Shown one piece after another: positions 12,514-47,070 of a stretch of 64,000 bases of DNA; position 1 is the first letter of the stretch; each line of letters begins with the position of its first letter. The stretch spans positions 35,297-99,296 of the forward strand of contig VBAT01000011.1 of assembly GCA_005884665.1 (NCBI GenBank), given 5' to 3'. The DNA comes from Bacteroidota bacterium. GTDB lineage: Bacteria > Bacteroidota > Bacteroidia > Chitinophagales > Chitinophagaceae. A model generated the notes under the pieces. It did not search any database and was not told the origin of the DNA. It saw nothing but the letters and a program-made list of their open reading frames with translations. The position numbers and the translations under genes are program-made.

Positions 12514-13911
12514 ATGGGAACTGCAGAGAAAGAAAAAAAATCCAGCAGGCAAAGGTTGAGCGCGGATGATGCGCAAACCATAGCTAAAGAAGCCTATATC
12601 TATGGCTTCCCGATGGTAGATAATTACCGCATCCAGTATGCCTATTTTGAAGACTGGACCGACCCGGAATATAAGACCCCCTGGAACCTGCCTTATAACA
12701 ATGCACGGGTCTATACACCGACCGATAGAGCGGTTCAAACTCCTAATTCGGACACTCCTTATTCATACATTGGTGCCGACCTGAGGACAGAGCCTTTGGT
12801 AATTACCATACCCATGATCGAAAAGGAAAGATATTTTTCCGTCCAGTTCATAGATGCCTATACTTTCAATTTTGATTATATCGGCAGCAGGACTACTGGA
12901 AATGACGGCGGTCATTTTTTATTAGCCGGCCCAAACTGGAAAAGTGAAACACCGGAGGACATAAAACATGTGATACGTTCCGACACGCAATTCGTGTTGG
13001 CATTATTCCGTACACAACTTTTCAACCCAGAGGATATTGAGAATGTAAAAAAAATACAAGCCGGCTATAAAGTGCAGTCCTTAGCCGAATTTTCCGGGAA
13101 ACCTGCTTCCTTCCCTGCGTCAAGAAGCAATTTCATCAAACCATTAAGCAAGGAGAAGCAACTAAGCTCATTGAATTTCTTTAGTATTCTGAATTTCCTC
13201 CTTCAATTCTGCGTTATCCATCCCAGCGAGAAAGGGTTAATGCAACGTTTTGCAAAATTGAATATCGGGCCCGGTAGGGAATTTAATGCAAGCGATTATT
13301 CCGAAGAGATACAAAAGGCGATCAGCAACGGGATTGCCGATGCCTGGTTGAAAGAGAAAGAAGTACGCGATAAAGTTGCGGCCGGCAAACTCAGCTCTGG
13401 CGATCTTTTCGGCACCCGCGAGTATTTGAATAACAACTATGCCTATAGAATGGCGGCAGCAGCAGGAGGTATCTACGGTAACTCAAAGGAGGAAGCGATC
13501 TATCCTGTCTATTATCTTGATTCTACCGGTCAACCAATCGATACCTCGGCTAACAAGTATACCATTCATTTTGCAGCCGGGCAATTACCTCCCGTGAATG
13601 CATTCTGGTCGCTTACTCTCTATGAAATGGAGTCGAGCCTGCTGTATGCCAACCTGCTTAATCGCTATTTGATCAATTCACCGATGCTTCCGGAGCTCAA
13701 AAAAGACGCAGACGGAGGACTGACGCTTTATGTACAGCATGAATACCCGGGTAAAGACAAAGAACCCAACTGGCTGCCTGCACCCAAAGGAATTTCAAAA
13801 CTGGTATTACGACTGTACTGGCCAAAAAAAGAAGCGCTTGATGGAACATGGACAGCGCCACCGATTATGATCAACCTGCCTGCCGGCAGGCAGGCGGAGC
13901 GAAGCAATTGA
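12514..13911 (+). CDS. DUF1254 + DUF1214 domain protein
   Basis: AKEAYIYGFPMVDNYRIQYAY, ..TPNSDTPYSYIGADLR (DUF1254), VNAFWSLTLYE...DADGGLTLYVQHEYPG (DUF1214); C-terminal LPAGRQAERSN derives from a DNA palindrome. Confidence 0.92.
   Translation: MGTAEKEKKSSRQRLSADDAQTIAKEAYIYGFPMVDNYRIQYAYFEDWTDPEYKTPWNLPYNNARVYTPTDRAVQTPNSDTPYSYIGADLRTEPLVITIPMIEKERYFSVQFIDAYTFNFDYIGSRTTGNDGGHFLLAGPNWKSETPEDIKHVIRSDTQFVLALFRTQLFNPEDIENVKKIQAGYKVQSLAEFSGKPASFPASRSNFIKPLSKEKQLSSLNFFSILNFLLQFCVIHPSEKGLMQRFAKLNIGPGREFNASDYSEEIQKAISNGIADAWLKEKEVRDKVAAGKLSSGDLFGTREYLNNNYAYRMAAAAGGIYGNSKEEAIYPVYYLDSTGQPIDTSANKYTIHFAAGQLPPVNAFWSLTLYEMESSLLYANLLNRYLINSPMLPELKKDADGGLTLYVQHEYPGKDKEPNWLPAPKGISKLVLRLYWPKKEALDGTWTAPPIMINLPAGRQAERSN
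13875..13894. repeat. CCTGCCTGCCGGCAGGCAGG palindrome inside the 3' end of a CDS
   Basis: Perfect 20 bp palindrome, also present with one mismatch at 16825 and 20905. Confidence 0.9.
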
Positions 13912-16824: not shown

Positions 16825-16844
16825 CCTGCCTGCCGGTAGGCAGG
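16825..16844. repeat. CCTGCCTGCCGGTAGGCAGG palindrome
   Basis: Between tandem paralogs; same family as 13875 and 20905. Confidence 0.9.
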
Positions 16845-19673: not shown

Positions 19674-20837
19674 ATGAAGGGAATTAAAAAACAAATCGCA
19701 TGTCTTTTCGTTTGGCTGCTATGCTGTGGTATTATGTTTGGTCAACAGGAAAAAAAACGTGTCTCATTAAAGGATTCCCTGGATCGGGCTTTCGATGTCA
19801 GCGATTACGTCATTGACGCGAATGGGTTTGTTCCGATACCATATATTATTACCGAGCCGGCTCTTGGCGGATTTGGTGGAGCGCTCATACCTGTTTTTAT
19901 CAATAAGCGGCCTCCTTATCTAGATTCCGTAAAAGAAAAACTTATCAGGACCCCGGTAGCCCCGGATATAACAGGTGGCATTGGGCTCTATACAGCCAAT
20001 AATACATGGGGCCTCATTGGCTTTCGTTCAGGCACGCTGGTCAAAAGTCGTATCAAATACAGGATCGGTGGTGGATATCTGAACCTGAACATGTCTTTTT
20101 ACAAAACATTTGACCAGTTGGGTGAAAAAGAAATGAAATTCAACTTCAAACTCGTCCCTGTATTTCTGCAGGCAATTAAACGTATCGGTTTCTCTCACTG
20201 GTATGGAGGTTTCAAATATCTTTTCCTGAAAACCGATACACGTTATGTTGGGGACACACTTTTAAATCATCTTGCAAAAGAATTCGAACAAGAGCAGATG
20301 ATCAGCCAGCTTGGGGCAATCATTGAGCTGGATACAAGGGACAATATTTTTACACCTGATCGGGGAATAAAATTTCATATGGAGGCTGTTTGTTCCGACA
20401 ATGTGCTTGGAAGTGATTATGACTATTGGTTACTGAACTATTTTATGTTTTGGTACCGGCCGATCTCAAAAAAACTGGTTGGCGGCCTTCGTATCGACGG
20501 GCAGCAGGCGATCAGTGATCCTCCCTTTTACCTGCTTCCATTTATTAATATGCGCGGAGTACCGGCTGCACGTCACCAGGGTACTGCAACGCTACTTTCT
20601 GAAGGCGAGTTGAGATGGGATATCGTGAAGAGATGGAGCGCCGTAACGTTTGGCGGAGCCGGCAAAGCATTTGATGAATGGAATGCCATCAATGATGCGG
20701 ACTGGGTCTGGAGCTACGGCGCTGGTTTTCGCTATTTACTCGCACGCAAATTCAAACTAAGAGTAGGGATCGATGTAGCCCACGGCCCCGGAACCTGGGC
20801 TTACTATATTGTATTCGGAAGCAATTGGCAGAAATAA
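19674..20837 (+). CDS. BamA/TamA-type surface antigen beta-barrel protein
   Basis: FVPIPYIITEPALGGFGGALIPVF...LDTRDNIFTPDRGIKFHMEA...LRVGIDVAHGPGTWAYYIVFGSNW. Confidence 0.85.
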   Translation: MKGIKKQIACLFVWLLCCGIMFGQQEKKRVSLKDSLDRAFDVSDYVIDANGFVPIPYIITEPALGGFGGALIPVFINKRPPYLDSVKEKLIRTPVAPDITGGIGLYTANNTWGLIGFRSGTLVKSRIKYRIGGGYLNLNMSFYKTFDQLGEKEMKFNFKLVPVFLQAIKRIGFSHWYGGFKYLFLKTDTRYVGDTLLNHLAKEFEQEQMISQLGAIIELDTRDNIFTPDRGIKFHMEAVCSDNVLGSDYDYWLLNYFMFWYRPISKKLVGGLRIDGQQAISDPPFYLLPFINMRGVPAARHQGTATLLSEGELRWDIVKRWSAVTFGGAGKAFDEWNAINDADWVWSYGAGFRYLLARKFKLRVGIDVAHGPGTWAYYIVFGSNWQK

Positions 20838-20838
20838 A

Positions 20839-21062
20839 CTAGTGTTAAGTTAAGTGTGATTCGACGATTTATATTGACGGATACACGAATGAAAAGATTT
20901 ACTGCCTGCCTGCCGGTAGGCAGGTTTAACGATATAAACAAATTAACTGATAAACGGATGAACGATCACTAACTCCAATCACTAACTCCAATCAACGCCA
21001 CGGATGACCTTCTTTTTTATCCGTGAATCCGTGGCGACAAGATATGCTTAACATAACACTAG
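20839..21062. mobile_element. MITE-like element, copy 1
   Basis: Terminal inverted CTAGTGTTAAGTTAAG / CTTAACATAACACTAG; extended imperfect inverted repeat; second inverted copy at 46043..46234; contains a CCTGCC palindrome at 20905..20924. Confidence 0.7.
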
Positions 21063-22354
21063 AACACTTCGTTTAGTCCGCAAAATATTCCGGCGGCGCC
21101 ATATTTTCCCATAGCAAAATCAAGACATAAAGCTGAGCGGCTGTTTTTATCAAAAAGAATTCGCAATCCTAGACCTGCGGCCGGTTCCCAGTATTCGAAT
21201 ACTTTTTTATAAAGATCGTCAGATGCGGTTTGGAAATTGAAGAACGCTACGCCGCTGATTAAACTGTTTCTCGTTACTGGGAAACGGTATTCTGTTTCGA
21301 AGCAGGCATACGAAGGACCTTTGAAACGCCCAAACGTGTAACCTCTCCCGCTACGCATATAGGTATCATGAGCCGTGCCGGGCATTTCAAGGTAAGGTAT
21401 CTTACCGCTTAGCTTATAGGATGCCCATTGCCAAAATGCAAGCACATGCGCGGGATTGCGTTTGCTCAGGCTGATGTATTCCCTGAAATCATACATAAGT
21501 TGTACCGCATGCTTTGTACTTGCCATCCATGTTTCATTGAACCGTATATTGACATCTGCATAGATTCCGCGATAGGCCCTGACAGGATGTTCGCGGGTAT
21601 TATACTGGAATGCCAGGATGAAACCGTTTGCCGAGTAGCTATTTGAGTCAAAATCGTTGCGACGGCTGTATCGCTGGTGTGGAGTGCTTAAACCCTCAGT
21701 CTGCTTTTTATCATTAATATCGGTATAAATATCAAAATCGACGCCAGCGCCGATATAAAAATCTCCTGCAATCCTACGATAGGCTTTTTCAAATAGCCGG
21801 ATAAACTGGTATTTGATCGGGAAGGAACTGTCGCCGTTCTTTGTCGGCATATCATTAAAATTAAAACCGGTGATGACCCTTCCCTGCCCCGTACCGATAC
21901 CCCAGTCAACAATACCCATCTTCGACAGCTGCCAGTCACCCTGCCAGTTCCATTTGTTTCCGGGTGTAAACATATTATGACGAGCCCGGAACGTAAGTAT
22001 GTTTTTAGTGCTATAAGAAGCAGACAGATTGAAAATAGAATAGATGGTATTGGATGGAAGGCCAAATTGTTTACCTGCCATAAGGTTCACCCCGATGTTG
22101 AAACCAAAGCTGGGATTATATCCCAATATCGGCAATAATGTAATGGATGGTTTGTTATGGGGTCTTTTTTCAGCCGGACCTTTTTTGAAGATTTGACGGA
22201 CCACGTCATTTATGTCCTTTTGTTTGCTTAGATCATAGTTCCGGGTTAATGTATCCTGACCTGATGCACTGGTACAGGGATAAATAATGAACACCAGGAC
22301 AGCCAGGAAGAAAAGCAATGAACCCAGTTTTCTTTTTTCAGATGGAACTGACAT
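21059..22354 (-). CDS. BamA/TamA-type outer-membrane protein
   Basis: ITLLPILGYNPSFGFNIGVNLMAGKQFG...; terminal Phe; stop TAG lies in the end of the MITE-like element. Confidence 0.8.
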   Translation of the reverse strand: MSVPSEKRKLGSLLFFLAVLVFIIYPCTSASGQDTLTRNYDLSKQKDINDVVRQIFKKGPAEKRPHNKPSITLLPILGYNPSFGFNIGVNLMAGKQFGLPSNTIYSIFNLSASYSTKNILTFRARHNMFTPGNKWNWQGDWQLSKMGIVDWGIGTGQGRVITGFNFNDMPTKNGDSSFPIKYQFIRLFEKAYRRIAGDFYIGAGVDFDIYTDINDKKQTEGLSTPHQRYSRRNDFDSNSYSANGFILAFQYNTREHPVRAYRGIYADVNIRFNETWMASTKHAVQLMYDFREYISLSKRNPAHVLAFWQWASYKLSGKIPYLEMPGTAHDTYMRSGRGYTFGRFKGPSYACFETEYRFPVTRNSLISGVAFFNFQTASDDLYKKVFEYWEPAAGLGLRILFDKNSRSALCLDFAMGKYGAAGIFCGLNEVF

Positions 22355-43481: not shown

Positions 43482-46034
43482 ATGGGGAACATAAACTGGA
43501 AAAAAATCTTACCGCACGCTATTGCTGTCTTTAGTTTCATTGTCATTGCCGCACTCTTCTGTAAACCGGGACTGGAAGGCAAAGTCCTTTACCAGCATGA
43601 CATTGTTCAATACGAAGGCGGAAGTAAGGATATCGCCAACTATGTGGCAAAACACGGTGAGGCGCCCCTGTGGACGAACGGTATGTTCAGTGGCATGCCT
43701 ACCTACCAGATTTGGATGCCCGCCAATAATGTTCTCCCGCATTATGTCAATAAAGTGCTTACGTTAGGTCTGCCGCAGCCAATGCAGTTCTTTTTTCTGG
43801 CCTGTCTGCTATTTTATTTTCTTTCCCAGGTAGCCCGCGTAAACCCCTATATCGGCATATTCGGCGCGCTGGCATTTGGGTATTCTACTTATAATCCTGT
43901 AATGATCTCCGCCGGTCACGTAACGCAGATGTGGGTGGTGGCCTATATGCCCGCTATACTTGCCTCCGTGATGTTGATCTACAGAAAAAAATATTTGTTG
44001 GGCTCCGGCCTGCTGGCTTTATTTACGGCTACGCAAATAGGATTGAATCACCTGCAGGTATCCTATTACTTATTTATTACACTGGGTCTTTACACCATTT
44101 TCTGCGTCGTACGCTGGACAAAAGAAAAGGAATACGCGCATATGATCAAAGCGCTTGGTTTTACAGCACTGGCCGTAGTGATTGGGGTAATGGTGAATGC
44201 GGTGACCCTGCTTACCACCTACGAATATGCCAAGGAAACGATACGCGGTGGCTCTTTAGAAGTAAAGGATTCTACCACTACTGTCAAAACCACGGGCCTG
44301 AGCAAAGAATACGCTTTTGAATATAGCTACAAACCATTGGAGACATTTACTGTGATGTTTCCGCGGATATATGGCGGCAGCGGCGGCATCCGGGAGATTG
44401 GAGAAGACTCAAAAATAGCCCAGGCGTTAAGTGAAATGAATCCCCAGCTTGCACAACAACTACAACAGAGCGGTCTGCGGCAAAGCAGTTATTGGGGATC
44501 ACTGACGTATACGGCAGGGCCGCCCTATTTCGGGGCGATTGTCTGTTTCCTGTTTATCGTTTTCCTGTTTTTTGTAAAAGGTGAGATCAAATGGTGGATA
44601 CTTACTGCCAGTGTACTTGCACTATTAATGTCCTGGGGAAAATATTTTTCCGGGTTCAACTATTTCCTTTTCGATTATTTGCCCCTCTACAACAAGTTCA
44701 GGGCGCCTTCGATGAGCCTCATTATCCCGCAATTGCTATGGCCTTTTGCAGCGATCCTTGCATTGCAAAATGTCATCAGCAATGTCAATAACCCTGATAC
44801 CTGGAAAAAGCTAAAGAAAGCGGGTATCGCAACCGCAGCATTATTGGTCATTGCCCTTTTTGCGTATTTATCGCTCGACTATATGGATGAAGGAGCAAAG
44901 AAGCTTAAGGAACAGGTTATGAGCATGCAGCAACAGGAGGTAAGAGAACCTGTATTGAACGCCATGAAAGCACTGGCCGAGGACCGGAAAAGCATATTCC
45001 TCACAGACATCCTGAAGGCTATTGCCATCATCGGTATTTTCTTTGGAATTCTTTCGTTATATGTGAGGCGGAAGATCCAAAATCCCATCTGGGTCTATAT
45101 CGCAGCGATATTATTAATATTAATTGATCTAATACCTGTTGACAATACCTACCTGAATAAAACTCCTTTCCTGGACCGGGAGGCTTACCAGGAACCCGAA
45201 GAAAGCAAACAGGACCTGGCGCCGGGAACAGCCGACCAGCAGATATTAAAAGATACAGGATGGTACCGCGTGCTGAACCTGGCCGTATCACCGTTCCAGG
45301 ATGCCACTACTTCCAATTTTCATAAATCGCTGGGCGGTTACCATGCAGCTAAGATCAGCCGCTACCAGGACTTATGGACAAACAAGATCATTGCCGAAAC
45401 TGAAGCCTTGCGCAATGATTCTATGGCTTTCGTTGGCCTGGGGCTTAATCAAACGACATATACGGGATTGAACATGTTGAACACGAAGTATATCATCGGC
45501 AACAATCCTCCTGCTACGTCCAATCAGCGTCCGCTTGTTATTGTCAACCCCAATGCCCTGGGGCCTGTCTGGTTTGTAAGGGAAGTGCGTTTTGCCAATG
45601 ACCTGAGAGATGAAATGAAGTTTCTAAACGGCATGGATGCCTCAAAGGTGGCAATTGTATCTGCAATTGATAAAAACAAGGTCACTCAACCAGTATATGA
45701 TTCGAGCGCCAAAATTGAGCTGGTAAAAAATGATAACGATATTATCACTTACAAGTCCAACGCATCAAGCGTCCAGTTTGCGGTATTTAGCGAAGTATAT
45801 TATTCAGAAGGATGGAACGCATACATAGACGGGAAGAAAACAGATTATGTAAAAACGAACTATACCTTGCGTGGATTGAGTGTACCTGCTGGTGCCCACA
45901 CCATTGAATTTAAATTTGAGCCAGCCTCCTACAAGAAAGGAAGATCAATAACCACGATCGGCCAAATACTGGTGCTCTTGCTTTTGATCGCAGGGATTTT
46001 CTTTGATGTAGTGAGACGAAGGCAGATAGTGTAG
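43482..46034 (+). CDS. YfhO family membrane protein
   Basis: QHDIVQYEGGSKDI, multiple TM segments, C-terminal YYSEGWNAYIDGKKTDYVKTNYTLRGLSVPAGAHTIEFKFEP. Confidence 0.93.
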   Translation: MGNINWKKILPHAIAVFSFIVIAALFCKPGLEGKVLYQHDIVQYEGGSKDIANYVAKHGEAPLWTNGMFSGMPTYQIWMPANNVLPHYVNKVLTLGLPQPMQFFFLACLLFYFLSQVARVNPYIGIFGALAFGYSTYNPVMISAGHVTQMWVVAYMPAILASVMLIYRKKYLLGSGLLALFTATQIGLNHLQVSYYLFITLGLYTIFCVVRWTKEKEYAHMIKALGFTALAVVIGVMVNAVTLLTTYEYAKETIRGGSLEVKDSTTTVKTTGLSKEYAFEYSYKPLETFTVMFPRIYGGSGGIREIGEDSKIAQALSEMNPQLAQQLQQSGLRQSSYWGSLTYTAGPPYFGAIVCFLFIVFLFFVKGEIKWWILTASVLALLMSWGKYFSGFNYFLFDYLPLYNKFRAPSMSLIIPQLLWPFAAILALQNVISNVNNPDTWKKLKKAGIATAALLVIALFAYLSLDYMDEGAKKLKEQVMSMQQQEVREPVLNAMKALAEDRKSIFLTDILKAIAIIGIFFGILSLYVRRKIQNPIWVYIAAILLILIDLIPVDNTYLNKTPFLDREAYQEPEESKQDLAPGTADQQILKDTGWYRVLNLAVSPFQDATTSNFHKSLGGYHAAKISRYQDLWTNKIIAETEALRNDSMAFVGLGLNQTTYTGLNMLNTKYIIGNNPPATSNQRPLVIVNPNALGPVWFVREVRFANDLRDEMKFLNGMDASKVAIVSAIDKNKVTQPVYDSSAKIELVKNDNDIITYKSNASSVQFAVFSEVYYSEGWNAYIDGKKTDYVKTNYTLRGLSVPAGAHTIEFKFEPASYKKGRSITTIGQILVLLLLIAGIFFDVVRRRQIV

Positions 46035-46042
46035 AGTGGATG

Positions 46043-46234
46043 CTAGTGTTATGTTAAGCATATTTTTCCGCCACGGATTCACGGATAAAAAAGAAGTCAA
46101 CCGCGGCATTGATTTGAGGTTGGCGATCGTTCATCTGTTTATCAGTTAATTTGTTAAACCGTTAAACGGTAAATCTTTTAATCCGTGTATCCGTCGCAAT
46201 ATAAAACGTCGAATCATACTTAACTTAACTGTAG
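46043..46234. mobile_element. MITE-like element, copy 2 (inverted relative to copy 1)
   Basis: GCTAGTGTTATGTTAAGCATA...CCGCCACGGATTCACGGATAAAAAAGAAG...GTCGAATCATACTTAACTTAAC is the reverse complement of 20839..21062 with divergence and without the CCTGCC palindrome. Confidence 0.7.
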
Positions 46235-46275
46235 ATGCTGGATGCTGGAGTTAGCATTGTAACTTCCATCATTAG

Positions 46276-47070
46276 CTATCTATTTTTGTTGATGATTTTC
46301 CAATAAAGGTTCTTCAATAGTACCCTCGTGCTTTCAGGATTGCGTAGGTCGATGATCTTTCGTTGTATTACGGCATCTTTCAATTGCTCCCAGTAAAGCT
46401 GTTTGTGTTTTTCCATAATATAATTCACGATCTCTTTCCGTTTCGGTTCGGATTGAGTCAGGAGCATTGATTTTTCTGTTACCCGGTAATTTAAGAGGTA
46501 TTCTTTCAGTACATGTACCCTCCAACCTGCCGAAGTAAGCCGTATCCAGAACTCCCAGTCTTCATAGCCTGTTTTCATCTGCTCATCATAACCGCCGGTT
46601 TTCTCCCAACATTCCTTCCGGAACATGGCGCTGGCGCAACTTTCCTGCCTGTACAGGAAGTTTTTTATATCACCGCCCAACGGTTTCCAGGTATATTTTT
46701 TCAGGCCAAAGCTTTTTAGGTAGCAAGTGACCCCTCCGGCCGATGGATCCTGTTTTAATGCGTCGACCCCCTGCCCGATAAAGGTGCTCTCGAATTTATC
46801 GTCAGCATCCAGGGTAACGATAATACTGCCGCTGGCATGCCGGATGCCATGATTACGAGCGGAAGAAAGGTGCCCGTTTTCCTTGTGCAAAACCTTTATT
46901 ACCGGATCATTGAAAGAATCCAGTTTTTTTAACGTAAACTCATCGGTAGAACCATCATTTACGATTATTATTTCAAGATCTGTAAAGCCCTGCGCTTTGA
47001 TGGAAGAAACAGAATCATCGAGGTATTGCCCGTCATTATAGCATGGAATTATTACGCTTACCAGTGGCAT
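46276..47070 (-). CDS. Glycosyltransferase family 2
   Basis: VSVIIPCYNDGQYLDDSVSSIKAQGFTDLEIIIVNDGSTDE...LDADDKFE. Confidence 0.95.
   Translation of the reverse strand: MPLVSVIIPCYNDGQYLDDSVSSIKAQGFTDLEIIIVNDGSTDEFTLKKLDSFNDPVIKVLHKENGHLSSARNHGIRHASGSIIVTLDADDKFESTFIGQGVDALKQDPSAGGVTCYLKSFGLKKYTWKPLGGDIKNFLYRQESCASAMFRKECWEKTGGYDEQMKTGYEDWEFWIRLTSAGWRVHVLKEYLLNYRVTEKSMLLTQSEPKRKEIVNYIMEKHKQLYWEQLKDAVIQRKIIDLRNPESTRVLLKNLYWKIINKNR

Follow-up and report, generated by a model that had tools for sequence, protein, structure and literature searches.

Two copies of one gene-less element lie in inverted orientation in the window, the 64-kb stretch of DNA analysed here. Copy 1 (20839-21062) separates the convergent genes 19674..20837(+) and 21059..22354(-), and copy 2 (46043-46234) separates the convergent genes 43482..46034(+) and 46276..47070(-); sequences, coordinates, flanks and gene orientations are all as the original prediction had them. 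BLASTN with copy 1 as query recovered copy 2 from the minus strand of the window (46229-46043; E 5e-45; 76% with gaps), and a multiple alignment gives 89% identity between them once gaps are set aside. Four matches to the end motif CTAGTGTTAWGTTAAG, at no more than two mismatches, were found in the 64-kb window, against 0.04 expected. The matching ends described for copy 1 are present in its sequence, and the far end of copy 2 has decayed to CTACAGTTAAG (46219-46234). The features are as follows.

20839..21062, + strand: MITE copy 1, 224 bp, A end on the left and B end on the right
20839..20866, + strand: terminal inverted repeat, A end (CTAGTGTTAAGTTAAGTGTGATTCGACG), resembling the one that precedes the transposase in IS630 relatives
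20839..20842, no strand: CTAG target, left copy, including the duplicated TA
20905..20924, no strand: 20-bp palindrome CCTGCCTGCCGGTAGGCAGG in copy 1
20997..21035, no strand: inner hairpin module GCCACGGATGACC..ATCCGTGAATCCGTGGC, resembling solo hairpins elsewhere in the genome
21033..21062, - strand: terminal inverted repeat, B end (CTAGTGTTATGTTAAGCATATCTTGTCGCC), resembling the end downstream of the transposase
21059..21062, no strand: CTAG target, right copy; on the minus strand 21059-21061 is the TAG stop of gene 21059-22354
46015..46291, no strand: outer arms (46015-46029 and 46276-46291, the right arm T-rich) of a hairpin older than the insertion of copy 2, from the reconstructed empty site
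46043..46234, - strand: MITE copy 2, 192 bp, inverted relative to copy 1 and lacking the 20-bp palindrome
46043..46046, no strand: CTAG target of copy 2
46231..46234, no strand: CTAG at the A end of copy 2, decayed to GTAG

The element family in its host genome

The genome that carries the window, which lies at C33:35297-99296, is a 5.7-Mb draft that is 94% complete and divided into 124 contigs. It holds nine copies of 185-224 bp. When all of it was scanned for the end motif at up to two mismatches, a 99-bp element emerged on C97 that has the same ends and a different interior, as well as one match to a single end, which we take to be fortuitous because its position looks like coding sequence. 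The further copies support a mobile family. None was found in the six congeners searched. With gaps set aside, the nine copies are 85-94% identical in pairwise comparison, most so at the two ends (91% and 94%); mean divergence between copies is about 11%, and some ends have decayed. The copies are short (below about 300 bp), non-coding, dispersed and multiple, the properties by which MITEs are recognised. Copies in four places (L235 5001, L237 5001, L239 5185 and window 46231) lie in or beside intergenic phrases such as CCAGCATCTAGCATCC / GGATGCTGGATGCTGG; these form a low-complexity repeat in which CTAG sites are available.

The assembly gave no match to DDE_3 (PF13358), and the sampled congeners yielded no close transposase. 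A collapsed IS copy could be missing, since the assembly is an incomplete draft in many contigs. The family looks orphaned because a transposase was found neither in the genome nor in the genus, and this absence, the divergence of the copies and their decayed ends indicate that it is probably now immobile and decaying.

Ends shared with IS630 elements and the CTAG target

The same ends, CTAGTGTTAAGTTAAGY and CTAGTGTTATGTTAAnY, left/right asymmetry included, are found on autonomous relatives of about 1.2 kb, whose two overlapping ORFs encode an IS630-family transposase. An end scan of 299 genomes of the same bacterial family gave a match in 27, including an inverted pair 1199 bp apart (L079). 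The first ORF of this 1199-bp element encodes an HTH protein (PF13551, PF13565) and the second a DDE_3 protein (PF13358, 1.8e-29); both match the NCBIfam IS630 transposase model NF033545 (6.5e-50), as does L158. Across 84,980 named species genomes the IS630-like end pattern was found in at least 119 stretches, and all matches listed by name belong to Bacteroidota. The inverted end pairs of the Bacteroidota loci fall into two size classes, of about 80-290 bp and of 1199-1273 bp. Members of the long class usually have an end of the AAGTTAAGT/ATT type before the transposase and one of the ATGTTAATC/AGC type after it; L216 seems to be the other way round, its strand having been set from the longest ORF only. 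The split of the transposase into two overlapping frames is seen in L079 (element at 997-2195) and L158 (2622-3832), and in L158 the second part is itself interrupted. Such an arrangement suggests a programmed frameshift in this Bacteroidota IS630 group.

The window element keeps the end asymmetry: its A end resembles the 5' ends of the ISs and its B end their 3' ends, at up to 19 of 20 positions each. The first 20 bp of the A end in the family consensus are identical at 19 positions to L058, L130, L158 and L205, and those of the B end at 19 to L158, a locus from a Chitinophagaceae genome that thus agrees with the window element at 19/20 at each end. The likeness to the autonomous ISs is limited to about 20-28 bp per end. 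Between its ends the element has no relation to the transposase gene and so is not a simple internal-deletion derivative.

The copies have CTA..TAG on either side, and none shows a direct repeat beyond CTAG. When the flanks of L079 are joined with a single CTAG, the interrupted gene reads as one open frame across the junction, and abutting elements have one CTAG in common (L084, L149). IS630 prefers the TA in CTAG, by the account of Tenzen and Ohtsubo 1991 given in PMC2170065, and ISY100, another IS630-family element, duplicates TA (PMC2170065). The restored frame, the common CTAG and this precedent place the duplicated TA inside CTAG, and the insertion is thus at C^TA^G with duplication of the TA. 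The first base of the element is G and its last is C, so that CTAG is restored at both junctions and a TAG stop codon at the target stays intact. This bears directly on copy 1, where the minus-strand gene 21059-22354 ends inside the terminal CTAG, a point absent from the original prediction; its TAG stop is hence the insertion site. Preserved TAG stop codons are also seen at C102 and C55.

CTAG is rare in the host genome: 400 kb contain 115 sites where 385 would be expected. Of the 42 sites that lie outside coding interiors, 14 are stop codons. An argument for active targeting of insertion to stop codons or gene 3' ends, beyond mere tolerance, comes from the pooled loci, where 11 of 38 placed MITE insertions are in a TAG stop against 5 of 82 non-coding CTAG sites (p=0.001), but genes there were called by length alone and we distrust the excess for that reason. 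It disappears against the background of the host genome, in which three of ten copies occupy stop codons, the same share as the available sites, and we consider such targeting very unlikely.

Because the ends and their asymmetry are common to transposase-coding IS630 relatives, the element is best described as a non-autonomous IS630 MITE. The earlier term 'MITE-like' was correct and can now be sharpened to the IS630 family with a CTAG target, on the strength of the shared ends and of the transposase in the relatives. We hold with high confidence that both copies are gene-less IS630-type MITEs that would have been mobilised in trans and pasted at CTAG. What can be read from the DNA itself are the two ends, the number of copies and their size classes, the family of the transposase, the CTAG target and the stops left intact. 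In the mechanism that we infer, a transposase of the IS630 family (Tc1/mariner-type DDE), supplied in trans, would bind the two ends, excise the element and reinsert it by cut-and-paste at the TA of CTAG, duplicating the TA; the terminal G and C would rebuild CTAG at both junctions, and a TAG stop would survive the insertion. Copies would then persist where they are harmless, in short intergenic gaps, at gene 3' ends and in stop codons, and a family whose transposase is now undetectable in genome and genus would probably be left without movement.

Correia elements of Neisseria and Nezha of cyanobacteria are likewise small non-autonomous elements with a TA duplication; to our knowledge, their sequences are unrelated to that of the window element. 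A closer parallel is RUP of Streptococcus pneumoniae, a MITE attributed to IS630-Spn1 and present in about 108 copies, which resembles the window family in its size of about 100-200 bp, lack of genes, IS630-family ends, TA target and intergenic copies (PMC2229807). The window family differs in having other ends, another host phylum and a longer CTAG target, and in numbering only ten copies, in a genome where the search for a partner IS found none. The autonomous Tc1/mariner-type elements IS630 and ISY100 agree with it in TA insertion and duplication, IS630 also in the CTAG preference as related in PMC2170065, and their transposase family is that of the 1.2-kb relatives; unlike them, the window element lacks a transposase gene, and the transposase of its Bacteroidota relatives is in two overlapping frames. 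MITEPsy1 of Pseudomonas syringae is a small bacterial MITE that also inserts at CTAG (or YTAA), but with a 4-nt duplication, a tentative IS5-type assignment and other ends (PMC3189936).

Folding and the convergent junctions

Copy 1 folds far better than its shuffles (z -6.8), as does copy 2 (z -4.2). In copy 1 the lowest-energy fold of the plus strand is multibranched, and not the single long hairpin proposed for the whole element. As a rival reading, the element could be a normal intergenic hairpin or RNA gene, encoded by the host and spread by duplication without a transposase. This would account for the folding and for the occurrence of interior modules outside the element; it would leave unexplained the precise ends at CTAG in nearly all copies and the sharing of those ends with transposase-coding elements. 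The Rfam scan of the window gave no match and the covariation search for a conserved RNA was negative, with a compensatory change in one of 53 pairs of the consensus fold, and we find this explanation scarcely credible.

From the two convergent junctions it had also been proposed that the element serves as a bidirectional terminator. On this reading it would have a domesticated function, the long hairpin ending the transcripts of both convergent genes and copies being kept for that effect. Both window copies and C55 do lie between convergent genes, the convergent junctions of the host genome fold better than the tandem ones (median z -1.76 versus -0.58, p=0.03), a long hairpin is present at the copy-2 junction in all five congeners, and the site of copy 1 before insertion has no strong hairpin, which makes the MITE the only candidate there. 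As a family property, however, the proposal is not supported. The flanking genes of the ten copies in the host genome are convergent in three cases, tandem in four and divergent in three; 3/10 is no established enrichment over the roughly 16% of junctions that are convergent (p=0.21), nor is the pooled figure of 10 convergent among 38 placed MITEs significant against the same share (p=0.07). A scan for intrinsic terminators (a GC-rich stem plus a T tract on each strand) found none inside copy 1 and one weak candidate, with a 5-pair stem, in copy 2, and the covariation term is unfavourable. The hairpin at the copy-2 junction is older than the MITE, which inserted into its stem. Copies at gene ends are in any case expected, because a third of the non-coding CTAG sites of this genome are stop codons. 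We therefore judge a domesticated terminator unlikely, although copy 1 may have a local terminator effect, given the lack of a strong hairpin before insertion. The position between convergent genes is better regarded as coincidence plus tolerance, and the insertion tolerance offered as the other explanation in the original prediction fits the IS630 MITE reading.

The broader idea that convergent junctions of the host genome are systematically built of long hairpins was rejected, the shift in folding being only modest. At the copy-2 junction the five congeners always have the yfhO-like and glycosyltransferase (yfhO/GT2) genes in convergent order and lack the MITE; their flanks are too diverged for a base-exact empty site. 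When the flanks of copy 2 are joined, a pre-existing hairpin with a T-rich arm appears with the MITE inside its stem, so the hairpin came first. Each congener has its own hairpin at this place, unrelated in sequence, except that two species share one, so that the orthologous convergent junction (window 46035-46275 and L263-L267) holds unrelated long hairpins in different species of the genus. This suggests that hairpin sequence turns over fast at a fixed place. For the copy-1 gene pair no conserved pair was found in the congeners, which gave a homologue of only one of the genes (58% identical). Solo hairpins GCCACGGATACACGGATGAC..TTTTATCCGTGAATCCGTGGC that resemble 20997-21035 occur at L017, L018 (three in tandem), L020, L023, L024 and L029, and a CCACGAATGCACGAAT hairpin similar to them fills MITEs of another genus (L086, L090).

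A nested palindrome and the wider group

The 20-bp palindrome CCTGCCTGCCGGTAGGCAGG is present exactly in five of the nine copies, with single-base differences in two of these; the other four lack exactly the palindrome, except that in C51 the gap is slightly longer. It is cleanly there or missing at one site, with no duplication or leftover, and each of the two sequence groups (subclades) of the MITE includes copies of either state: group one has TTTACCA(palindrome)TTTAAC beside TTTACCATTTAAC, and group two TTTACCG(palindrome)TTTAACGG beside TTTACCGTTTAACGG. The host genome contains 27 GC-rich palindromes of the form CCTGCCTGCCGG(T/C)AGGCAGG, often at R|TTTAA or before CGAAGCGAAGC. Palindrome sites in the window are at 20905-20924, 13875-13894 and 16825-16844, with others at L218-L232; for the window gene that carries another copy, no orthologue was found in the genus. 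The exact palindrome is present in 30 of 150 genomes of the bacterial family, its reversed control in none, and identical palindromes are dispersed in 25 of the 103 genera sampled from that family.

Gain or loss of the palindrome could be explained by replication slippage, by exchange between MITE copies or by a dedicated process. A tentative and rather doubtful suggestion is that it behaves as a unit in its own right, gained and lost exactly, and would thus be a minimal mobile or precisely excised palindrome. If it were true, the MITE copies would constitute a natural before/after experiment for the putative enzyme of the palindrome.

The literature searched contained no description of a Bacteroidota-wide group of IS630 elements and MITEs, and nothing relevant on MITEs in Bacteroidetes, Chitinophaga or Flavobacterium, or at convergent genes. 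The present analysis identifies such a group, made up of IS630 elements and the MITEs that they would mobilise, and corrects a tempting functional reading based on two convergent junctions. It also shows how such elements can directly adjoin genes, since a TAG stop is rebuilt from the CTAG target together with the terminal bases, and the nested palindrome provides a lead on an unexplained type of repeat.
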